64,000 nt of DNA from Rhodoplanes tepidamans (lineage in GTDB: Bacteria > Pseudomonadota > Alphaproteobacteria > Rhizobiales > Xanthobacteraceae): the NCBI RefSeq assembly GCF_030813915.1, contig NZ_JAUSUJ010000013.1, forward strand, positions 1 to 64,000. The letters run 5' to 3'. Below, one piece after another: positions 18,220 through 56,256 of this stretch (the first letter of the stretch is position 1; the number at the start of each line of letters is the position of its first letter). The notes below the pieces were generated by a model. It did not search any database. It was not told where the DNA came from and saw nothing but the letters and a program-made list of their open reading frames with translations. Both the position numbers and the translations under genes were made by a program.

Positions 18220-18766
18220 GACAGTTCTCCCCAGCGACCGTGGTCGACCCGAGGTCGGCACCCACATGAGGCTTCGAGCATTCAACGGGCGAGCAGAACT
18301 ATTCGGGCGGAGAATTTACGGTCTTCCCGAACTTTTTTGAGAGTTTTTACTAGGAAAAATCTGCCGATCACTGGGTAGGAATTTCCTATTACAGTATAAA
18401 TGACGATCTTCTAAGACTTGCATTCGGAATATAGAGAAACATACCCGGCAGCTTCGATCATCGGCACCACGAACACTCGTATCGGCGGCACGCTCGACAG
18501 CGGCAGGTCTGTCGCATCGGTGGCCCTCACGCTGCCTCCGTGCCCTCGGCGGGGCCGTCCGGCCCGTCTCGTCCTACCGAAACACCTGCACGTCCGGCAG
18601 GCGACCACCGGCGTCCGAGGCGGCAGGCGGCACTGCTCCGTGGCGACCGCGCCGACCGGGCGCGCGTTCTATGCAGGACTTTTATGCAGCATGACGCAGG
18701 TCAATCGGACCGGTCGCCGGCTGGGCTAGGGTGCCGGCTTCTTATTCGGTGAGACTGGAGGCGTTC
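18220..18766. other. Divergent regulatory region with AT-rich core
   Basis: This stretch lies between the divergent ECF sigma and nifJ genes. The 120 bases from 18301 are only about 39% GC. They include T-runs and a perfect 6+1+6 palindrome TAGGAA-T-TTCCTA at 18376-18388, with a further TAGGAA at 18351-18356. No FNR/FixK (TTGAT-N4-ATCAA) or sigma-54 site is visible. I see no convincing gene in it; short frames here look unlike coding sequence. Confidence 0.5.
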
Positions 18767-22426
<3,660 letters not shown>

Positions 22427-22604: not shown

Positions 22605-23621
22605 ATGACCGACCTGACCACCCGCTATCTCGGGCTGAACCTCACCTCGCCCCTGGTGGCCTCGGCCTCGCCGCTGTGCGACTCGGTCGACGGCATCTGC
22701 CGGCTGGCGGACGCCGGGGTCGCGGCCGTGGTGCTGCCCTCGCTGTTCGAGGAGCAGCTGGTGCTCGAGAGCCTCGCCGTGCACGCCGACCTGGAGCGCG
22801 GCGCCGACACGTTCGCCGAAGCGGCCGGCTTCTTCCCGGACCTCCACACCTACAATCTCGGGCCGGACGGCTGCCTCGAGCTGATCTGCCAGGCCAAGGC
22901 CCGGGTCGACATCCCGATCGTCGCGAGCCTGAACGGCGTCACGGTGGGCGGCTGGATCGAGTACGCCAAGCTGATGCAGGACGCCGGTGCCGACGCGATC
23001 GAGCTCAACACCTACTCGATCGCCGTCGACCCGACCCGCACGGCCGCCGAGATCGAGCAGGGCTATGTCGACCTGCTCGCCGCCGTGAAGGCGCAGATCT
23101 CGATCCCGGTGGCCGTCAAGCTGTCGCCCTTCTTCTCGGCACCGGCCAACATCGCCCGGCGGCTCGGCGAGGCCGGCGCCGACGGGCTGGTGCTGTTCAA
23201 CCGCTTCTACCAGCCCGACTTCGACATCGAGGAGCGCGAGGTGGTCGCCTCGCTGGCGCTCAGCCGGCCGGAGGAGCTGCTGGTGCGGCTGCACTGGGTG
23301 GCGATCCTGTACGGCCGGGTGAAGGCCGACCTCGCGATCACGGGCGGCGTCCATTCGGCGAACGACATGGTCAAGAGCATCATGGCCGGCGCCCGCGTCG
23401 CCTGCACCACCTCGGCCCTGCTGCAGCACGGCCCCGGCTACGCCCGGGCGATGCTGCGCGACCTCGACGCCTGGCTCGACGCGCACGAGTACGAGTCGGT
23501 CGCCCAGATGTGCGGCTCGATGAGCCGCGACGCGGTCCCCAACCCGTCCGCCTACGAGCGCGGCAACTACATGAAGGTGCTGAGCTCCTACACGCTGCGC
23601 GACGACATCCTGGCGGTGTGA
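22605..23621 (+). CDS. Dihydroorotate dehydrogenase-like flavoprotein (NifJ-associated)
   Basis: A 338-residue TIM-barrel flavoprotein of the class I DHOD/DHPD fold. Landmarks: LGLNLTSPLVASASPLCDS at the N-terminus, VASLNGVTVGGWIEYAKLMQDAGADAIELN, VAVKLSPFF, and the phosphate-binding ITGGVHSANDMVKSIMAGA. It lacks a clear catalytic loop of true pyrimidine DHOD, and this form is regularly found beside nifJ, so a role tied to PFOR or ferredoxin redox is likelier than UMP synthesis. A good AAGGAG site precedes ATG 22605. The exact substrate is unknown. Confidence 0.85.
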   Translation: MTDLTTRYLGLNLTSPLVASASPLCDSVDGICRLADAGVAAVVLPSLFEEQLVLESLAVHADLERGADTFAEAAGFFPDLHTYNLGPDGCLELICQAKARVDIPIVASLNGVTVGGWIEYAKLMQDAGADAIELNTYSIAVDPTRTAAEIEQGYVDLLAAVKAQISIPVAVKLSPFFSAPANIARRLGEAGADGLVLFNRFYQPDFDIEEREVVASLALSRPEELLVRLHWVAILYGRVKADLAITGGVHSANDMVKSIMAGARVACTTSALLQHGPGYARAMLRDLDAWLDAHEYESVAQMCGSMSRDAVPNPSAYERGNYMKVLSSYTLRDDILAV

Positions 23622-39859: not shown

Positions 39860-39875
39860 ACAACATTTGCGTTGT
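39860..39875. promoter_or_regulatory. Second dyad in the LysR/Bug intergenic region
   Basis: ACAAC-N6-GTTGT is an inverted repeat about 50 bp from the first dyad. LysR regulators often use two spaced sites, one strong and one activation site; this may be the activation site for the Bug gene. Confidence 0.3.
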
Positions 39876-39965
39876 CGGGGCAGCTGTTGCCGCCCATTTC
39901 ACTTTGCCACAATCCGGGCTTGTCGGTACCGCTCGCCCATCGACCCTCGACCTTCGGAGACGAAC

Positions 39966-40922
39966 ATGCTGGCGAAATGGGCGGCCGTTCTCGGCCTGGC
40001 GCTGATCACGACGGGCGCGGCGGCGCAGCCCTATCCCAGCCGCCCGATCACCCTGGTGGTGCCCTATGCGGCGGGCGGCAGCTCCGACGTGCTCGGCCGG
40101 CTCCTGGCCGAGCGGCTGTCGCGGTCGCTCGGCCAGCAGGTGATCATCGACAACCGGGCCGGCGCCGGCAGCCGGATCGGCACCGAGATCGTCGCCAAGG
40201 CGCCGGCGGACGGCTACACGCTGCTGCTCGCCGACATGCCGCACACCATCGTGCCGGCGATCCAGAAGGGCGTCCCCTATCACCCGGTGCGCGACTTCAC
40301 CCCGGTCGGGCTGATCGGCACCACGTCGATGGTGCTGTTCGTCAATGCCGGCGTGAAGGCGCAGACGGCCCAGGACCTCGTCGCCCTCGCCAAGGCGAGC
40401 CCGGACACGGTGACGATCGCCTCCGGCGGCATCGGCAGCACGACGCATCTCACCGCCGAGCTGTTCCAGGCGCGCACCGCCACCAAGCTCGTGCACGTGC
40501 CGTTCCGGGGCGCCGGCCCGGCCGTCAACGACCTGTTCGCCGGCCACGTCCAGTCCTCGTTCACGACGCTCGCCACCGCCAGCGCGGTGCTGGACGGCGG
40601 CGGCATCCGGGCGCTCGCCATCGCCAGCGAGACGCGGCTGCCGTCGCGCCCGACCATCCCGACCTTCAAGGAGAGCGGCATCGATCTGGTGGTCGAGCAC
40701 TGGTGGGGCATCCTGGCGCCCGCCGGCGTGCCGGCCGAGATCGCCGCACGCCTGCACAAGGAGCTCGCGGCCGTGCTGGCCGCCCCCGATTTCGCGACCA
40801 AGCTCGAGCCGCTCGGCGTCGCCCCGTCGGCCAAGTCCGTGCAGGAGTTCCGCGCCCTGCTGGAGAGCGAGACCGCGCGCTGGGCCGAGATCGTGCGCAG
40901 CGTCGGCGTGGTGGCGCCGTGA
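39966..40922 (+). CDS. Tripartite tricarboxylate transporter substrate-binding protein (Bug family)
   Basis: A 318-residue periplasmic binding protein. The signal peptide is residues 1-20 (cleavage after GAAAQ). The Bug fold shows YPSRPITLVVPYAAGGSSDVLGR and NRAGAGSRIGTEIVAKAPADGYTLL. It captures carboxylates or aromatic acids for a TctAB-type transporter, whose membrane genes are absent here. ATG 39966 follows a GGAGACG site. Its stop overlaps the M28 peptidase start (GTGA), suggesting co-translation. Confidence 0.92.
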   Translation: MLAKWAAVLGLALITTGAAAQPYPSRPITLVVPYAAGGSSDVLGRLLAERLSRSLGQQVIIDNRAGAGSRIGTEIVAKAPADGYTLLLADMPHTIVPAIQKGVPYHPVRDFTPVGLIGTTSMVLFVNAGVKAQTAQDLVALAKASPDTVTIASGGIGSTTHLTAELFQARTATKLVHVPFRGAGPAVNDLFAGHVQSSFTTLATASAVLDGGGIRALAIASETRLPSRPTIPTFKESGIDLVVEHWWGILAPAGVPAEIAARLHKELAAVLAAPDFATKLEPLGVAPSAKSVQEFRALLESETARWAEIVRSVGVVAP

Positions 40923-45730: not shown

Positions 45731-47728
45731 ATGACCGAGGTCAGCTACGGCGTCTGGGACGGCGTCGTGTACGACAACCGCGACGGTGCGTCCTCGCTCC
45801 GGGAGAACACGTTCCCGACCCTCGCCAACGTCGACAGCTTCGATCCGCACAACCGCATCCGCGCCTTCTTCGGCGACCGCGGCTTCTTCATCTTCGACGA
45901 CGGCGTCAGCCTGATCGACGCGCTGTGGCGGCAGATGGACGAGGCGGCGGACCAGTCCTGCGGCAAGTGCACGCCCTGCCGCATGGGCACCGTGCTGGTG
46001 CGCGACGCGCTCGACGCGCTGCGCCACGGCCGCAGGAGCCCGCTCGGCCTCGGCGAGATCGAGATGCTGGCCGAGCAGATGACGGCGACCTCGATGTGCG
46101 GCCTCGGCCAGACCTGCGCCCGCGCGCTGCTCGCCGCGCTGCGCAGCTTCCGCGAGGTGATCGAGGCCGAGATCGCCCGCGGGGCGCAGCCCGAGCAGCA
46201 CGGCATGGCCTACATGACGGCGCCCTGCATCGAGGCCTGTCCGTCGCGCATCAACGTGCCGCGCTACATCGACTACATCCGCGACGGCAAGCCCGAGCAC
46301 TCGCTCGGCGTCATCCTGCAGAAGTACCCGATGGCGGCGACCTGCGGCCGCGTCTGCGTGCGGTTCTGCGAGATGGCGTGCCGGCGCAAGTTCGTCGACG
46401 AGGCGGTCGGCATCAAGACGCTCAAGCGCTACGTCGCCGACCAGCAGACCGGCCCGCGGGCGCTGACCTTCGGGCGCGAGCTGATCGCCCAGCCGCTCGG
46501 CGCCGACATGCGGGTCGCCGTGGTCGGCGCCGGCCCGGCCGGCGTCTCCTGCGCCTACCACCTGCTGCTGCACGGCTATCACGTCGACATCCTCGAGGCG
46601 ATGGACGAGCCCGGCGGCATGGCGGCGATCGGCATCCCGTCCTACCGCCTGCCCAAGCACGTGCTGCACGCCGAGACCGACATCATCACCGAGCTGGGCG
46701 GCCGCTTCCTGTTCAAGCGCGCGCTCGGCCACGACTTCTCGATCGACGACCTGTTCGCCCGCGGCTACCGCGCCGTGTTCCTCGCCATCGGCTGCCAGCA
46801 GGGCATCCGGCTCGGCGTCGAGAACGAGGATCCGGAGATGCCGGGCTACAAGTCGGGCATCGGCTTCCTGCTGGAGGTGCACGATCACGTCGCCGGGCTG
46901 AAGACCGTCACGCTCTCCGGCGACGTGGTGGTGGTCGGCGGCGGCAACGTCGCCATGGACTGCGCCCGCTCGGCGCTGCGCATGGGCGCCGAGCGCGTCC
47001 ACGTCGTCTACCGCCGCACCCGCGAGGACATGCCGGCCGACTCGGAGGAGGTCGAGGCGGCGATCGCCGAGGGCGTCGTCTTCCACTTCCTCACCAATCC
47101 GGTGCGCATCGTCGACCAGGACGGCCGCATCACCGGGGTCGAGATCGCGACCATGCGGCAGACCGCGCCGGACGGCCGCGGCCGCCGCAACGTCGAGGCG
47201 GTGCCCGGCACCGAGCGGATCATGAGCTGCGCGACCCTGATCGCCGCCATCGGCCAGCAGGTCGTCAAGGGAGCACTGACGCCCGAGGACGGCATCAAGT
47301 TCGACCGCTGGAACTGCGTCGCCGTCGACCAGACCGACCTCGCGACCTCGCGGCCCGGCGTGTTCGCCGGCGGCGACTGCGCCTCCGGCCCCTCCACCCT
47401 CATCCACGCGATGGCCAACGGCCTCAAGGCCGCACGCTCGATCGACGACTGGATCCGCAAGGGCCACACCTGCTTCCAGCCGCGCACCCGCATGCGCCAG
47501 ATCCTCAACGACAACCGGATGCTGGCCGACGACGCCGTCGAGGTGCCGGTGAAGCCGCAGTACCGGGTCCACCACCCCGAGCTCGACCCGACCGTGCGCA
47601 AGCTGATGTTCGAGGAGGTCGAGCAGACCATCAGCCCCGAGCAGGCCTATCGCGAGGCCAAGCGCTGCATGCGCTGCTACCGCACCTACTCGGTGATCAC
47701 CGAGCACGCGATCCCGGAGGGAGCATGA
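45731..47728 (+). CDS. NuoF-type Fe-S / GltD-like NAD(P)H flavin oxidoreductase (hydrogenase partner)
   Basis: A 665-residue fusion. Residues ~60-145 are the NuoF C-terminal 4Fe-4S domain (Cys77, Cys80, Cys83 in CGKCTPCRMG, and Cys123 in MCGLG) without the FMN/NADH part of NuoF. Residues ~165-245 are the GltD/NfnB N-terminal cluster domain (CIEACP; CGRVCVRFCEMAC). The rest is a two-dinucleotide-fold FAD/NAD(P) module (GAGPAG near 266; GGGNVAMDCARSALRMG near 403; FAGGDCASG). It ends with CMRCYRTYS. It would exchange electrons between NAD(P)H and HydA. It overlaps hydA by 4 nt (ATGA), so the two are a unit. Confidence 0.88.
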   Translation: MTEVSYGVWDGVVYDNRDGASSLRENTFPTLANVDSFDPHNRIRAFFGDRGFFIFDDGVSLIDALWRQMDEAADQSCGKCTPCRMGTVLVRDALDALRHGRRSPLGLGEIEMLAEQMTATSMCGLGQTCARALLAALRSFREVIEAEIARGAQPEQHGMAYMTAPCIEACPSRINVPRYIDYIRDGKPEHSLGVILQKYPMAATCGRVCVRFCEMACRRKFVDEAVGIKTLKRYVADQQTGPRALTFGRELIAQPLGADMRVAVVGAGPAGVSCAYHLLLHGYHVDILEAMDEPGGMAAIGIPSYRLPKHVLHAETDIITELGGRFLFKRALGHDFSIDDLFARGYRAVFLAIGCQQGIRLGVENEDPEMPGYKSGIGFLLEVHDHVAGLKTVTLSGDVVVVGGGNVAMDCARSALRMGAERVHVVYRRTREDMPADSEEVEAAIAEGVVFHFLTNPVRIVDQDGRITGVEIATMRQTAPDGRGRRNVEAVPGTERIMSCATLIAAIGQQVVKGALTPEDGIKFDRWNCVAVDQTDLATSRPGVFAGGDCASGPSTLIHAMANGLKAARSIDDWIRKGHTCFQPRTRMRQILNDNRMLADDAVEVPVKPQYRVHHPELDPTVRKLMFEEVEQTISPEQAYREAKRCMRCYRTYSVITEHAIPEGA

Positions 47729-49608
47729 TCATGGACACCACCGACACGGGTGTGACCGACATGGTCCCGACCCCGCCGGGGCCGGTCGAGCCCGCCGCGG
47801 AGCTGTCAGCGACCATCAACGGCAAGGTGGTGGCGGGACGGGCCGGCGAGACCATCCTCGAATGCGCCCGCCGCCACGAGGTCTACATCCCGACCCTGTG
47901 CGAGCTGCACGACATCGACCACGCTCCCGGCACCTGCCGGGTGTGCCTGGTCGAGATCAAGATGCCGCACGCCGACAAGACCCATCTCGTCGCCTCCTGC
48001 ACCACGCCGATGCAGGACGGCCTGGAGATCAACACCCGCACGCCCGAGCTGCGCGAGATGCAGCGCCTGCAGGTCGAGCTCCTGCTCGCCGACCACGACC
48101 AGGACTGCGCCACCTGCATCCGCCACGGCAAGTGCGACCTGCAGGACGTCGCCCAGTTCGTCGGCCTGCGGCAGAACCGCTTCTTCGATCCCGCCCGGGT
48201 CGCGGCGCGGCCGGTCGACGAGTCCTCGCCGGCGCTGATCCGCAACATGAAGCGCTGCATCCGCTGCCAGCGCTGCATCGCCATCTGCCGCGACGGCCAG
48301 GGCGTCGACGCGCTCATCCAGATCAACAGCGGCCTCGACACCGCGGTCGGGCTGCGCCACGGGCTGACGCAGAAGAACTCCGCCTGCGTGACGTGCGGCC
48401 AGTGCGTGCTGGTCTGCCCGACCGGCGCGCTCGGCGAGCGCGACGAGACCGATCGCGCGCTCGAGATGATGTACGATCCCGAGCTCGTCACCGTGGTGCA
48501 GTTCGCCCCCGCCGTGCGGGTCGGCTTCGGCGAGGAGTTCGGCCTGCCGCCCGGCACCAATGTCGAGGGCCAGATCATCACGGCGCTGCGCAAGCTCGGC
48601 GCCTCGATCGTGCTCGACACCAACTGGGGCGCCGACCTCGTCATCATGGAGGAAGGCACCGAGCTCCTGCACCGCATCGCCGAGCGCAAGAAGCCGACCT
48701 TCTCGTCCTGCTGCCCGGCCTGGATCAACTTCGTCGAGCGGCACTACCCCGACATCATGCCGATGCTGTCGTCGACCAAGTCGCCGCAGCAGTGCGTCGG
48801 CACGCTCGCCAAGACCTACCTGCCCGAGCGGATGGGCATCGATCCGGCCCGCATCCGGGTGATCTCGATCATGCCGTGCACGGCCAAGAAGGACGAGATC
48901 GTCCGCCGCCAGCTCGTCCACGACGGCGTGCCGGAGGTCGACGTGGTGCTGACCACCCGCGAGTTCGCCCGCATGCTGCAGCGCGAGCGCATCGACCTGA
49001 AGTCGCTGCCGCCGTCGACCTTCGACAACCCCTACATGAGCGAGTATTCCGGCGCCGGCGCCATCTTCGGCACCACGGGCGGCGTCATGGAGGCGGCGAT
49101 CCGCACCATGTACTACGTCGTCAACGGCCACGAGCTCGAGCATGTCGAGATCGAGCAGCTGCGCGGCTTCGAGGGCGTGCGCACCGCGACCGTGGAGCTC
49201 GGCGGCGCGGTCGGCACCGTCAAGATCGCCATGTGCCACGGCCTCAAGCCGACCCGGCAGATCGTCGAGGAGGTGCGCTCCGGCAAGTCCGATCTCGACT
49301 TCATCGAGATCATGGCCTGCCCGGGTGGCTGCGTCGACGGCGGCGGCACGCTGCGCTCCAAGAAGGCCTATCTGCCGCACGCGCTCAAGCGCCGCGCCAC
49401 CCTGTTCGGCATCGACAAGAACCGGAAGGTGCGCCAGTCGCACCGCAACGAGCAGGTCCAGGCGCTCTATCGCGACTATCTCGGACACCCGAACTCCGAG
49501 AAGGCGCACCACCTGCTGCACACCTACTATACAGACCGCAAGATCGAGATGACCCAGACGGTCCGGGAGGTGTGGGCCGACCTCAAGATGAACGGCAAGG
49601 TCTACTGA
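47725..49608 (+). CDS. hydA: [FeFe]-hydrogenase catalytic subunit (GltD-linked, group A2-like)
   Basis: A 627-residue hydrogenase with M3-type modules. There is an N-terminal 2Fe-2S domain (PGTCRVCLVE), a His-Cys 4Fe-4S cluster (DHDQDCATCIRHGKCDLQ) and two 4Fe-4S clusters (CIRCQRCIAIC; CVTCGQCVLVC). The H-cluster domain follows: L1 SSCCPAW (Cys329 proton relay, Cys330 ligand), L2 IMPCTAKKDE (Cys385) and L3 IMACPGGCVDGGG (Cys532, Cys536). The small-subunit-like C-terminus (LYRDYLGHPNSEKAHHLLHTYY) is fused. All H-cluster ligands are present. HydE, HydF and HydG maturases are not in the window. Pairing with a GltD-like partner matches the glutamate-synthase-linked class of HydDB. ATG 47731 is a close alternative start. 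Confidence 0.92.
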   Translation: MIMDTTDTGVTDMVPTPPGPVEPAAELSATINGKVVAGRAGETILECARRHEVYIPTLCELHDIDHAPGTCRVCLVEIKMPHADKTHLVASCTTPMQDGLEINTRTPELREMQRLQVELLLADHDQDCATCIRHGKCDLQDVAQFVGLRQNRFFDPARVAARPVDESSPALIRNMKRCIRCQRCIAICRDGQGVDALIQINSGLDTAVGLRHGLTQKNSACVTCGQCVLVCPTGALGERDETDRALEMMYDPELVTVVQFAPAVRVGFGEEFGLPPGTNVEGQIITALRKLGASIVLDTNWGADLVIMEEGTELLHRIAERKKPTFSSCCPAWINFVERHYPDIMPMLSSTKSPQQCVGTLAKTYLPERMGIDPARIRVISIMPCTAKKDEIVRRQLVHDGVPEVDVVLTTREFARMLQRERIDLKSLPPSTFDNPYMSEYSGAGAIFGTTGGVMEAAIRTMYYVVNGHELEHVEIEQLRGFEGVRTATVELGGAVGTVKIAMCHGLKPTRQIVEEVRSGKSDLDFIEIMACPGGCVDGGGTLRSKKAYLPHALKRRATLFGIDKNRKVRQSHRNEQVQALYRDYLGHPNSEKAHHLLHTYYTDRKIEMTQTVREVWADLKMNGKVY

Positions 49609-49649: not shown

Positions 49650-49836
49650 TGATGCGGTGCAGTATTTTCGGATTGCGCGAAAAACGACTCGCCGGCGGCC
49701 ATCAGGTCAGTGCCGGGCGCATTGCCGCGGGCGCCATCGTCGCTTGTCTCACCGATCACGGGATGAGACGGTTCGACGTTCCCGCCGGAGCGCACACCCG
49801 CTCCGACTGCATGACCCCGATCAGGAGCAGATCACG

Positions 49837-50814
49837 ATGATGCGTCGCGCTCTCGTCGCTGCCACGGCCGCCGTCGCCCTCCTCGTCGCCGCCGCGTCCC
49901 CGGGCGCCGCGGCCGACAAGTTTCCGGACCGCACCGTCAAGATCGTCGTGCCGTTCGCGGCCGGCGGCGGCGTCGACACGCTGGCGCGGCTGCTCGCCGA
50001 GCGCATGCAGGGGAAGCTCGGCGTCAACGTGATCGTCGAGAACCGCGCCGGCGCGAGCGGCACGGTCGGCGGCCAGTCCGTCCAGCAGTCGGCGCCGGAC
50101 GGCTACACGGTGCTGTTCTCGTCGAACACGCATTCCATGGCCAAGCAGGTGATGGCCAAGGCGCCCTACGATCCGCTGACCGACTTCGTGTCGATCGCCC
50201 GGGTCGGCGAGGCGCCGCTGCTCACCGTGATGGCGACCAAGATGCCGCAGAAGACGCTGGCCGAGGTCGCCGCCGCCGCCAAGGCCAATCCCGACCAGTG
50301 GACGGCCGGCACGCCGGCGCTCGGCTCGCCGAGCCACATCGCCACGCTCGAGTTCATGCGCATCACCGGCGCGAAGCTGACCATCACGCCGTATCGCGGC
50401 ACCGCCCCGGCCCTCACCGACGTCGCCGGCGGCCACATCCAGCTCCTCACCGACGCCATGGTGGTGCTGCTGCCGATGGCCCGCGACGGCAAGGTCAAGG
50501 GCATGGCGGTCACGGCGGCGAAGCGCAGCGCCCTCGCCCCCGACATCCCGACCGCGGCGGAGAGCGGCGTGCCAGGGCTCGAGGTGAAGTCGTGGTACGG
50601 CGTGTGGGGCCCGCTCGGCATTCCGGCCGACGTGGTGCAGACGCTCAACAAGGCGTTCCAGGACGCGACGCGCGAGCTCGCCGACTCGGGTCGCCTGAAG
50701 GAGCTCGGCGTCGACCCGGTCTACGAGTCTCCCGCGGTGTTCGCCAAGTTCATGGCCGCCGACGTCGCCCGCAACGCCGAGCTGCTGAAGTCGGTGAACT
50801 TCCAGCCGCAATGA
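49837..50814 (+). CDS. Tripartite tricarboxylate transporter substrate-binding protein (Bug family)
   Basis: A 325-residue periplasmic protein with a signal peptide (MMRRALVAATAAVALLVAAA, cleavage after PGAAA). Bug signatures: FPDRTVKIVVPFAAGGGVDTLAR and VENRAGASGTVGGQSV...APDGYTVLF. ATG 49837 follows AGGAGCAG; a second ATG is the next codon. It precedes an alpha/beta hydrolase and an isochorismatase-like gene, suggesting uptake of a small aromatic or N-heterocyclic acid. No TctA/TctB genes are present. It shares fold but limited sequence with the Bug protein at 40 kb. Confidence 0.92.
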   Translation: MMRRALVAATAAVALLVAAASPGAAADKFPDRTVKIVVPFAAGGGVDTLARLLAERMQGKLGVNVIVENRAGASGTVGGQSVQQSAPDGYTVLFSSNTHSMAKQVMAKAPYDPLTDFVSIARVGEAPLLTVMATKMPQKTLAEVAAAAKANPDQWTAGTPALGSPSHIATLEFMRITGAKLTITPYRGTAPALTDVAGGHIQLLTDAMVVLLPMARDGKVKGMAVTAAKRSALAPDIPTAAESGVPGLEVKSWYGVWGPLGIPADVVQTLNKAFQDATRELADSGRLKELGVDPVYESPAVFAKFMAADVARNAELLKSVNFQPQ

Positions 50815-52891: not shown

Positions 52892-55800
52892 TCACCAGGC
52901 GACGGCGAGCGAGCCGGTTCCCGAATAGATCTGCGTCGCGCCGGCCAGCTGGCCGTCGAAGCCGGCCCGCAGGGTGACGCCACGCGACAGCGTCAGCTCG
53001 GCGCCGGCCGACACCAGCGCCGCGTCGGCGGCCGGCGACGCGCCCAGCACCGTGAAGCCGGCCGGCGAGAGGTTGACGAAGCTCGCCACCGCCGCGCGCT
53101 CGGTCGAGAATTCGTGCGCCCAGCCGAGCCGCCCCCGCAGGGTCAGCGCCGCGTCCGCCGTCCGCCACGCCACGGCGTCGAAGCGGGCGCCGAGCTCGCT
53201 GCGGACCGCGCTCGTCGTCCGCTCCGCATAGGCGAGCGCGAAGCCGGCGAGCCCGGCCGCATCGGTCTCCGCATGGGCCGGCGCCCGGAAGGCCTGCGCC
53301 GTCACCGCCGCGAACGGCGTGACGCCGACGTCGCCCGGGACCGCGAGCCGCATCCCGGTCTCGACCCGGCCGCCGACGCCCTGCCCGGTGAAGGCGCCGT
53401 TCAGCCGGTCGGCAACCCCCGGCATGGTGACGGTGCGGTCGGTGGTCACGTCGAAGGCGCCCCAGGTCCCCGCCGCCGACACATAGGCGGCGCCGGCCCG
53501 CCAGCTCCCGTAGCCGCCGACCTGGATCGTGCTGCCGCGCCCGCTGCCCAGGCCGCCGAGCGAGAACGCCGTCTCGCCGCCCGCCAGCGCCAGACCGAGC
53601 ACGAGATCCGGGCCGGCCCGGTAGTCGGCGCCGCCGGCGAGACCCCAGTTGCGCACCGACAGGTCGTGGCTGCCGGCGGCCGCGTCGCCCCGATAGCGCG
53701 CGTCGCCGCCGAAGCCGCCGCCCCACACCCGCCAGCGCCGCGGCACGTCCGGAACGAGGTCCGGCGGCGCCTTGACGGCACCCGCGACCGCGGTCGCGGC
53801 CGGGCTCCCGGCCGGCGCCGGCGCGAAGGCCAGCGCCGGACCGCCCGCCGGACCGGCGCCGCGTCCGCCCGCGAACGGGTCGAGCATCAGCTCCAGGAAC
53901 TGGTCGGTCTGGCGGAAGGCCGCGGACGTCGCGCCGGTCGCGATCTCGCCGGAGAGCTGCGTCAGCACGGCCGGGATCGACGGCGCGGCGAGCACGTCGG
54001 CGAACAGCCCGGTGAGGCCCGGCCCGGTGTCGAAGGCGCGGTCGAGGGTCGCCGCGACCTGCCGCTGGTCGCCGCTCAGCCCGGCGATGCCGGCGAGCGC
54101 CAGCGTGATGTCGAGCACCACGTCGTCGCCGAGCGTTCCCGCCACGGCCGTGTACCAGGACGGCAGCCCGGCGAGCGTCACGTCCGAGAACGATCCGGAC
54201 AGGCCGCCGTCGGCGGTCAGCACCGTGTAGCGGCGCGCCGCCGTCTCGCCCGGCAGCAGCACGGCCGCGAGCGTGCCGCCCAGCGTCGCCGTGCCGGTGA
54301 CGTGGGTGAGATCGGACCCGGAGGACGACAGCTCGACCCGGTAGGTGCTGCCGACCGCCAGCGTCAGGTCGCCGTTCACCGTGAGGGTGCCGATCGAGTT
54401 GCCGGGCGACAGCGTGCCGTACACCGTGGTCGACGGCAGGACGCCGGTGCCGCCGATCGTTCCGTCGACGCCGACCGTCAGGCCGCTCGACGACGCGATC
54501 GAGCCGTCGACGATCAGCGCACCCTCCTCGACCAGTGTCGTGCCCGTATAGGTGTTGCTGCCCGAGAGCGTCAGCGTGCCGGTGCCGACCTTCTCCAGCG
54601 CGCCGGAGCCGGTCGGCCCGCAGCAGCCCGAACGGTCGGCGATCATGCCGCTCACCTCGGTCGACTGATCGTTGCCGCCGACCACGAGCGTGTTGCCGGC
54701 CCCGATGGAATAGCGGCCGCTGCCGGCGATCGACCCCGCCGTGATGCGGCCGTCGCCGTCGGCGCCGTCGCTGCCGCCGAAGTTCACCGAGCCGGTGCCG
54801 GTGGTGACGAAGGCCGCGAGCCCGCCGGTGGCGTAGTCGTAGAACTCGGTCTTGCTGCCCGTGGTGGTGACGATGGTCGCACTGCCGGCCGTGCTCCAGG
54901 CGTTGAACACCGTCGAGCCGCCGTTGCTGTTGGTGATGGTGGCGTCGCCCGCCGTCGCATGGGCCCAGAACAGGGTGGTGCCGCGGTCGTTGGTGATGGT
55001 GGCGTCGCCGGCGGTCGGCGTCTCGGTGCCGTAGACGGCGCCGAAGCTCGTCGTGCCGTACTGCTGGTTGGTGATGGTGGCGAAGCCGGCCGTGCTGTTC
55101 CCGGTGAAGCCGGTCGAGCCGCGCATGCCGTTGACGATGGTCGCGTGGTCGGCCGAGCTCTGGTCGCCGAAGCTCGTGCCCGAATACTGGCTGTTGGTGA
55201 TGCTCGCGGTGCCGGCGGTGCTGGAGCCGAGGAACTCGACGCTGCCGAAATTGGTGTTGGTGATGGTCGCCGCACCGGCCGTCGCGGTGTCGCCGAAGCG
55301 CAGGACCGAGCCGTCGTTCGTGATCGTCGCGGCCCCCGCCGTGGACGATCCGCCGAACGTGATGGTCGAGCCCCAGGAGATGCCGATCGTCGCCGTGCCG
55401 GCCGTGCTCGATCCCGCGAACGTAACGGTGCCGCCGGAGTTGTCGATGATCGCGTCCCCGGCGCTGCTCGACCCGGTGAAGGCGAGCGTGCCGCCCCAGA
55501 TCCAGAAGGTCGGCGCAGAGGCCGAGGCGTTGTCGACCCCCGTCCCGGTGACGGTCAGGGTCGCACCCACTCCGAAGAAGTAGGCCGGCGCGTCGGCCGT
55601 GAAGGCGAGCGTGCCGATGGACGCGTCGTAGACGACGTAGACGGCGGGGGACCCGGCAGCGCTGTCGAAGGTCGCCGTGCCGGTCGGCACGCCGGCCGAC
55701 CAGTTCGCCGGATCGTGCCACTCGATGCCGTTGGCGGCCGTCCAGGTCGAGTCCTGCCCGTGCGCCGTCGCGACGACGGTGGTGGCCAGCGCCGCGCCGG

Positions 55801-55927
55801 CGAGCAGCGCCGCGCCGGCGAGCAGCGCCGGCAGCAGGCTCCGCCCGCGGCGCCGCGCCTCCGGGTGTGCGTGGCGCACGGCGCCGCACGCCGCGGCGAC
55901 AGCGCCGCGGTGGTTCGACCTGATCAC
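52892..55927 (-). CDS. Autotransporter (type Va) with beta-solenoid passenger
   Basis: A 1011-residue outer-membrane protein starting at GTG 55927 behind GGAGGGAC. An extended signal peptide covers residues ~1-55. The passenger (~100-330) has about ten ~20-residue units of the form GxATITN...F...STA, likely a beta-solenoid. A PATR autotransporter strand motif (GTGTLTLSGSNTYTGTTLVE) follows, then GTLSPGNSIGTLTVNGDLT, and from about 715 the 12-strand barrel (VWGGGFGGDARYRGDAAAG...) ending in Ala-Trp instead of the common Phe. It probably displays an adhesin or matrix protein. No protease motif is seen. Confidence 0.88.
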   Translation of the reverse strand: MIRSNHRGAVAAACGAVRHAHPEARRRGRSLLPALLAGAALLAGAALATTVVATAHGQDSTWTAANGIEWHDPANWSAGVPTGTATFDSAAGSPAVYVVYDASIGTLAFTADAPAYFFGVGATLTVTGTGVDNASASAPTFWIWGGTLAFTGSSSAGDAIIDNSGGTVTFAGSSTAGTATIGISWGSTITFGGSSTAGAATITNDGSVLRFGDTATAGAATITNTNFGSVEFLGSSTAGTASITNSQYSGTSFGDQSSADHATIVNGMRGSTGFTGNSTAGFATITNQQYGTTSFGAVYGTETPTAGDATITNDRGTTLFWAHATAGDATITNSNGGSTVFNAWSTAGSATIVTTTGSKTEFYDYATGGLAAFVTTGTGSVNFGGSDGADGDGRITAGSIAGSGRYSIGAGNTLVVGGNDQSTEVSGMIADRSGCCGPTGSGALEKVGTGTLTLSGSNTYTGTTLVEEGALIVDGSIASSSGLTVGVDGTIGGTGVLPSTTVYGTLSPGNSIGTLTVNGDLTLAVGSTYRVELSSSGSDLTHVTGTATLGGTLAAVLLPGETAARRYTVLTADGGLSGSFSDVTLAGLPSWYTAVAGTLGDDVVLDITLALAGIAGLSGDQRQVAATLDRAFDTGPGLTGLFADVLAAPSIPAVLTQLSGEIATGATSAAFRQTDQFLELMLDPFAGGRGAGPAGGPALAFAPAPAGSPAATAVAGAVKAPPDLVPDVPRRWRVWGGGFGGDARYRGDAAAGSHDLSVRNWGLAGGADYRAGPDLVLGLALAGGETAFSLGGLGSGRGSTIQVGGYGSWRAGAAYVSAAGTWGAFDVTTDRTVTMPGVADRLNGAFTGQGVGGRVETGMRLAVPGDVGVTPFAAVTAQAFRAPAHAETDAAGLAGFALAYAERTTSAVRSELGARFDAVAWRTADAALTLRGRLGWAHEFSTERAAVASFVNLSPAGFTVLGASPAADAALVSAGAELTLSRGVTLRAGFDGQLAGATQIYSGTGSLAVAW

Positions 55928-56256
55928 GATGTCCCTCCGCGAGGAGCACGCGCGGCTTCGGCCGCGTCGCGTCCCGCCGACCGCGATGGCGCGACCGGCC
56001 GTCGGCCCATTACGGCCAGGACGGACGGCTCCTCCAACTGTGGAAATTTGGGTCGATCGGCCGAAACGCACGCGTCGTCGGGGTGGAGTGTCCCGCCGAC
56101 CACACGCGGCAGCGGTCGCCGCCGGAGCCGGTGACGTGCCGTTACACGCCGGCGACCGATCGATACGGCCGCGCCGTACCGCGGCGACATGACCGCTGCA
56201 GTCTCCTCGCATCTTCGGGACCGAGCCCGGCCCCGATCGACAGACGAGGAGATCTC
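55928..56256. other. Divergent region between autotransporter and small secreted protein
   Basis: 329 bases with promoters expected for both directions. No dyad or known regulator site stands out. The autotransporter side has a GGAGG site next to its GTG start. The other side has CGAGGAGAT before ATG 56257. No gene is supported inside. Confidence 0.4.

Follow-up and report, generated by a model that had tools for sequence, protein, structure and literature searches.

A GltD-linked HydA gene pair in Rhodoplanes tepidamans and in two alphaproteobacterial clades without detected HydE, HydF and HydG

Group A2 of the [FeFe]-hydrogenases (glutamate synthase-linked, putative) is listed in HydDB with an "undetermined role", and the excerpt of the HydDB description used here recognises it by an immediately downstream protein with GltA/GltD and without a NuoF domain (PMC5037454). 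The maturases HydE, HydF and HydG are stated to be mandatory for an active [FeFe]-hydrogenase in the available part of PMC2148110. Among the alphaproteobacteria, the HydA of Rhodospirillum rubrum and similar proteins, lacking maturases, were judged probably inactive or else to serve a different function, and Pleomorphomonas and Phaeospirillum were described as having maturases, in the sections of PMC4967309 consulted. Maturase-less alphaproteobacterial HydA is thus already in print, and the phenomenon is known in outline. Among the papers brought up by the literature searches made here, none dealt with such a HydA in Rhodoplanes, Blastochloris or Cohaesibacter. Here we describe a gene pair encoding HydA and a GltD-type flavoprotein in a 64,000-nucleotide stretch of Rhodoplanes tepidamans DNA (the window; contig NZ_JAUSUJ010000013.1, positions 1 to 64,000), and we add that, in the GltD-linked family, the maturases follow a two-clade, all-or-none pattern while the active site is conserved.

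The pair resembles group A2 in that the gene of a group A HydA adjoins that of a GltD-type flavoprotein, whereas here the partner, which includes a NuoF [4Fe-4S] piece, lies upstream, the downstream gene encodes a TctC receptor, and the lineage is without maturases. The assignment to group A2 made by an earlier, sequence-only reading of the window therefore holds for the domains but not for the HydDB rule, as far as the excerpt gives it, of a downstream partner without NuoF. R. rubrum likewise has an alphaproteobacterial HydA in a maturase-less genome (PMC4967309, in the same sections), whereas the present case comprises two clades, one with single-contig genomes; the R. rubrum HydA was compared by description only. 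HydA found its best matches, by sequence and by fold, in the bifurcating HydABC enzymes (group A3, BfuABC; A. woodii, T. kivui; 7q4v, 8a6t and 7q4w), but the present pair has no NuoF flavin mononucleotide (FMN)/NADH part, no HydC in the flanking frames scanned, and a flavin module of the GltD type. NfnAB and the NfnB-like formate dehydrogenase subunits match the GltD half of the partner (8oh5_C, a formate dehydrogenase subunit; 9n5u_A and 5jca_L, NfnI), but here no NfnA lies beside the pair, and the GltD half is fused to the NuoF piece and adjoins HydA. SfrAB, the soluble Fe(III) reductase of Geobacter, also has an NADPH-oxidising subunit with GltD/NuoF-like parts.

The features of the pair, all on the + strand, are as follows.
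45731..47728, +, partner protein, 665 amino acids (aa): NuoF-type [4Fe-4S] domain fused to a GltD/NfnB-type flavoprotein
45920..46168, +, NuoF C-terminal [4Fe-4S] domain of the partner, aa 64-146 (PF10589)
46217..46447, +, Fer4_20 region of the partner, aa 163-239 (PF14691)
46508..47422, +, flavin adenine dinucleotide (FAD) / NAD(P)H module of the partner, aa 260-564 (PF07992, Pyr_redox_2)
47725..49608, +, HydA, 627 aa: NuoG-like N-terminal Fe-S domains, H-cluster domain and small-subunit domain
47797..48453, +, accessory Fe-S domains of HydA (Fer2_4, NADH-G_4Fe-4S_3, Fer4)
48490..49344, +, H-cluster domain Fe_hyd_lg_C (PF02906)
48700..48732, +, L1 motif FSSCCPAWINF (relay Cys329, ligand Cys330)
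48871..48897, +, L2 motif MPCTAKKDE (ligand Cys385, Lys388)
49312..49347, +, L3 motif MACPGGCVDGGG (ligands Cys532, Cys536)
49384..49539, +, iron hydrogenase small-subunit domain (PF02256)

HydA exceeded the cut-off of the group A model TIGR02512 (510.4 versus 405.95 bits) and matched PF02906 (7e-90) and PF02256; its top NCBIfam model, that of the NADH-dependent group A6, remained under the cut-off (717.5 versus 765). In the alignment with CpI, the ligands Cys330, Cys385, Cys532 and Cys536 corresponded to C300, C355, C499 and C503, the relay Cys329 to C299, and the residues Glu310, Glu313, Arg317, Ser349 and Lys388 to E279, E282, R286, S319 and K358, the CpI numbers being counted by hand from the alignment. 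The ligand, relay and pocket residues are presumed to have the roles implied by these names. The AlphaFold model of HydA, with a mean predicted local distance difference test score (pLDDT) of 72.9, found its best fold matches in the HydA of HydABC and in CpI; the structure models (mean pLDDT 72.9 and 71.6) supported the fold of HydA only. Judged by its sequence, HydA was confirmed as a group A [FeFe]-hydrogenase of full length in which no H-cluster ligand is missing. In sensory and NARF-like non-hydrogenases the relay Cys is lost and the L1-L3 motifs are degenerate, whereas in HydA the three motifs are intact and the relay Cys is kept, which together with the TIGR02512 score argues against such a placement; the tree described below held no sensory or NARF-like rows. 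HydA is the only PF02906 protein of the host genome, and its closest relative, from Rhodoplanes elegans, is 92% identical.

The open reading frames of the partner and HydA share 4 nt as ATGA, with the partner upstream, and GGAGGG stands immediately upstream of the HydA start. The match of the partner to NuoF (TIGR01959) was confined to profile positions 300-410 of 410, so the FMN/NADH part of NuoF is absent. Among 23 aligned sequences, Cys77, Cys80, Cys83 and Cys123 of the NuoF-type domain, six Cys of the Fer4_20 region (166, 170, 205, 209, 213 and 217), the C-terminal Cys pair, and Y427-R428-R429, which we take to be an NADPH signature, were all invariant. The sequence-only reading had described the two-gene pair with its overlap, the H-cluster and relay cysteines, the fusion of a NuoF 4Fe-4S domain to a GltD/NfnB-type module and the missing FMN/NADH domain, and all of these were borne out; its entry of NAD(P)H through the GltD half is supported by the domain matches. 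The pair is a group A2-like HydA/GltD-type module, probably with an NADPH link. Adjacent HydA and GltD-type partner genes were seen again in many genomes, so the pairing is not due to chance. The suggestion that ferredoxin may serve as a second, bifurcating partner found no support, since the FMN domain is lacking and no homologue of HydC/NuoE or of NfnA was found among the seven flanking frames, to which both searches were confined.

The host genome (6.86 Mb in 63 contigs, 100% complete, 1.79% contamination) gave no HydG match at E<=0.001. Three matches to the HydE model (42.7, 35.2 and 22.2 bits) were far under the cut-off of 254.6; judged by position, the first and the third fall in the CofGH gene, and the second falls in BioB. 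The best HydF match scored 80.9 bits, where the cut-off is 325.55, and covered the GTPase part only; no match to this model extended beyond profile positions 4-173 of 392, and by eye the three best are presumably Der, MnmE and Era. An ordinary hydrogenase served by maturases of its own genome was ruled out, since none of HydE, HydF and HydG was found. The search for these three genes had been set beforehand as the refuting test of the proposed coupling of NAD(P)H to H2, and the refuting result was obtained. As a side observation, the CofGH gene encodes FO synthase (L010, G000:C45; 1108 versus 1018 bits) and could be considered as a stand-in for HydG; the host genome, where it is present, was the only one checked for it.

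Among the relatives, HydG was searched in 74 genome entries, drawn from the 80 HydA loci (50 of them) and from the 34 carriers in the host's order (24 of them), some genomes being entered twice, and HydE and HydF were searched in 68 entries, six that repeat the places of others being left out. One of 14 control genomes exceeded each maturase cut-off (Thermotoga maritima where alone). HydE and HydF were present together in 41 of the 68 entries (HydE of G426 just below the cut-off), and 38 of these 41 also carried HydG over the cut-off, with a fragment or none in G435, G442 and G445. HydE, HydF and HydG were all absent from the other 27, six of them single-contig (G175, G197, G219, G302, G316 and G330) and four labelled as metagenome-assembled genomes (MAGs; L044, L049, L077 and L079). 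Two entries, G060 and G427, are one genome, which leaves 26 maturase-less genomes among 67 distinct ones. Maturases were found with the Pleomorphomonas loci and in Magnetospirillum molischianum, which we take to be a synonym of Phaeospirillum molischianum. These results agree with the sections of PMC4967309 cited above. In 14 of the 38 HydG-carrying entries hydG lies within 20 kb of the GltD-linked hydA (14 of 34 by direct count, with hydG on a different contig in the other four, G438-G441), and in 17 of the 41 maturase-carrying entries the GltD-linked HydA is the sole PF02906 protein at E<=1e-15, so the family looks maturase-linked by origin. The same counts ruled out the idea that A2-like HydA never needed maturases and that HydE, HydF and HydG were kept for another HydA.

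In a quick tree of 93 HydA proteins, the 27 maturase-less rows required four changes, and 25 of them fell into two separate clades with support of 100 each; the other two were MAG rows. Clade I (7 rows) contains the window, three Rhodoplanes, 'Rhodovulum' PH10, a Xanthobacteraceae genome and Blastochloris, while clade II (18 rows) contains Cohaesibacter, Rhodobium, Tropicimonas, one MAG and further genomes of the same order. A more careful tree of 35 chosen rows, with 6 from clade I and 8 from clade II, supported each clade at 100/100 and rejected a single joint maturase-less clade (log-likelihood 37.9 lower, p value of the approximately unbiased test 0.0038). Both clades are nested among maturase-carrying relatives, which suggests that maturases were lost, or that the pair was transferred without them, at least twice.

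HydA is under purifying selection, with a ratio of nonsynonymous to synonymous substitution rates (dN/dS) below 0.25. The explanation that we favour, and to which we give an even chance, is that the pair is kept under selection without canonical maturases and works without the [2Fe] subsite, in a hydrogen-free redox role. HydA and the partner would form a complex in which NADPH reduces the FAD of the partner, and electrons would reach the H site by way of Fe-S clusters, first those of the partner and then the NuoG-like ones in HydA. The pair would have been inherited or transferred without maturases and retained for its remaining redox job. We know of no route to the [2Fe] subsite without HydE, HydF and HydG, and for this reason the H site in the maturase-less lineages would most likely be the [4Fe-4S] half of the H-cluster only. 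The pair would then act as an NADPH-linked Fe-S oxidoreductase and not as a normal hydrogenase, with ferredoxin or a small oxidant as guesses for its partner. In two clades with cultured members, of which one includes single-contig genomes, an intact HydA persists together with its partner although maturases are absent, which offers a clean natural test between a second, hydrogen-free redox function of the HydA scaffold and a second route to the H-cluster.

Several observations weigh against a hydrogen-free role. None of the 25 rows of the two clades (24 distinct sequences) has lost a cluster ligand, Cys329, Glu310, Glu313, Ser349 or Lys388, and it is hard to see what these ligand, relay and pocket residues would do without a [2Fe] site. 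The other pocket positions inspected are unchanged as well, apart from Thr327 in clade I and Arg317 in one row. When each group was left out in turn and changes were counted at otherwise constant positions, clade II had changed 1 of 109 at a tree length of 1.46; as judged from these aligned positions, it shows no relaxation. Of 26 maturase-less entries, 19 carry HypD, and the host genome is one of them. No alternative substrate or electron acceptor for the pair was identified. The conservation of the pocket is itself weak evidence either way and does not prove an H-cluster: of the 172 positions that are at least 95% conserved in maturase carriers, 159 are also unchanged, and the 13 that vary in a maturase-less clade include no ligand. 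The accessory Fe-S domain Cys are likewise unchanged in the 25 rows. The idea that particular substitutions mark the maturase-less state was rejected: E77 alone varies in both clades, and its change to D affects only a minority.

The same conservation speaks for the foremost rival, a working NADPH-linked [FeFe]-hydrogenase whose complete H-cluster, including [2Fe](CO)(CN), is made without HydE, HydF and HydG; we regard it as unlikely, with something over a one-in-four chance. Two separate maturase-less clades have retained the ligands, the relay Cys, both Glu of the proton path, Ser349 and Lys388, and dN/dS in clade II is low, at 0.034-0.072 for four of the five pairs and 0.219 for the remaining one. 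Blastochloris sulfoviridis (G402; G313 has the same gene places) has both the A2-like pair and a HydABC-like HydA, both HydA types with ligand motifs, and no HydE, HydF or HydG over threshold. The HydABC-like HydA of Blastochloris adjoins a NuoF-like gene (L153:5693-9529). The genome of R. serenus (G399) has neither HypD nor HydE, HydF and HydG, and H2 production by this species is cited in the part of PMC13286885 available. Giardia and Entamoeba offer a further parallel, an [FeFe]-hydrogenase with maturases absent from the draft genomes, as reported in the excerpt of PMC2148110. On the other side, no candidate maturase was found, and no H2 data were found for these HydA proteins. To our knowledge there is no substitute for HydG-type chemistry, which counts against such a route. 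The H2 of R. serenus presumably comes from nitrogenase, and the HydA of Giardia and Entamoeba is, as we understand it, eukaryotic and without a GltD partner. HypD is missing from 7 of the 26 maturase-less entries, including the single-contig G175 and G219, so the [NiFe] Hyp pathway is no general substitute and was ruled out as a general source of CO and CN, though HypD is present in the other 19.

Under a second rival, the maturases were lost and HydA is a slowly decaying relic, a possibility that we hold improbable, at roughly one chance in seven. It draws on clade I, which holds the window and has perhaps undergone a slight relaxation, judging from the substitution counts: 7 of 126 otherwise constant positions are changed at a length of 0.77, and 4 of 74 in the H domain, compared with 0-2 of 65-71 H-domain positions in five maturase-carrying groups. 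The sixth such group, however, changed 5 of 73, and over all six groups, one of which is not a strict clade, 0-10 of 109-125 positions were changed, and 0-5 of 65-73 in the H domain, at lengths of 0.67-1.62. T327S stands beside the relay Cys in all seven clade I rows; the other pocket exception, Arg317 to His in one row, concerns a residue that is also variable among maturase carriers. The dN/dS of HydA in clade I (0.153-0.228 in five overlapping, non-independent pairs) is above that of eight maturase-carrying pairs (0.052-0.143), but the G+C content at third codon positions is 96% in the window HydA, which may depress dS and so inflate these values. Decay is also opposed by the reading frames, open in 7 of 7 clade I rows with zero ligands lost, and by the absence of relaxation in clade II.

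That the maturases are present but missed, in an assembly gap, on an unsequenced plasmid or by divergence past the models, is very improbable: the 63 contigs of the window assembly and the four MAGs among the 27 maturase-less rows would allow for it, but the joint absence extends to six single-contig genomes and several cultured isolates, and the same models detect HydE and HydF in the other 41 entries and exceed each cut-off in one of the 14 controls. The single-contig relatives and the all-or-none absence also ruled out an assembly artefact as a general answer.

Whether a conserved neighbour could replace the maturases was also considered. At 17 of the 80 loci (L043-L122), the HydA/GltD pair has a NitT/TauT-type ABC transporter beside it (e.g. 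L080:4875-7519, L100:11847-14390, L055, L047 and L077); 61 of the 80 loci include 5.5 kb upstream and 49 include as much on both sides. The transporter is found near the pair in Pleomorphomonas, which has maturases, and in clade II, and is not at the Rhodoplanes-type loci L043-L046. It thus occurs in hosts with and without maturases and was set aside as a side lead.

The rarity of [FeFe]-hydrogenases in alphaproteobacteria, asserted from the sequence alone, was upheld by the counts. HydA matches (E<=1e-40) were found in 37 of 397 genomes of the host's order; in three of these the match is confined to the NuoG-like part at the N terminus, which leaves 34 of 397. Of 385 genomes sampled across the class, 19 had HydA over the TIGR02512 cut-off. 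Among 18 further carriers of the class sample, HydG was over the cut-off in 9, present as two fragments in 1 and absent in either form from 8, so HydG-less HydA extends beyond the GltD-linked family; several of these 8 are small or fragmented assemblies, and HydG was the only maturase searched there. A NuoF-like stretch lies beside 16 of the 18 HydA proteins, and no GltD match was found beside any of them within the short loci examined. G484, G534, G535, G611, G628 and G645 have HydA over the TIGR02512 cut-off with the L1-L3 Cys kept and zero matches to the HydG model. Chemoreceptor-fused HydA-like proteins with a degenerate L1 motif were seen in L159, L160 and L161; that of L159 is a second HydA-like protein in the maturase-less Cohaesibacter-family genome G316. 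Among plasmids, 266 records matched HydA, 9 covering at least 80% of it, all below 60% identity, so no close plasmid relative of HydA was found.

None of the products of the seven flanking frames scanned has an evident connection with the pair: they are TctC receptors, an M28 peptidase, a TauE exporter, a weak GDSL match, a hydrolase and an isochorismatase. The TctC receptor genes lie at 39867-40922 and 49657-50814 of the window, the second directly downstream of HydA, and by eye a TctC-like protein also adjoins BioB in another locus of the host genome (L011). Elsewhere in the window, a pyruvate:ferredoxin (flavodoxin) oxidoreductase is encoded at 18731-22426 (TIGR02176, 1812 versus 911 bits), followed by a dihydroorotate dehydrogenase-like protein at 22605-23621; the oxidoreductase is a possible source of reduced ferredoxin. 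A large protein with an autotransporter repeat (TIGR02601) is encoded on the - strand at 52892-56212 and is 50-64% identical to its counterpart in L043 and L044, whereas the HydA proteins there are 91-92% identical.

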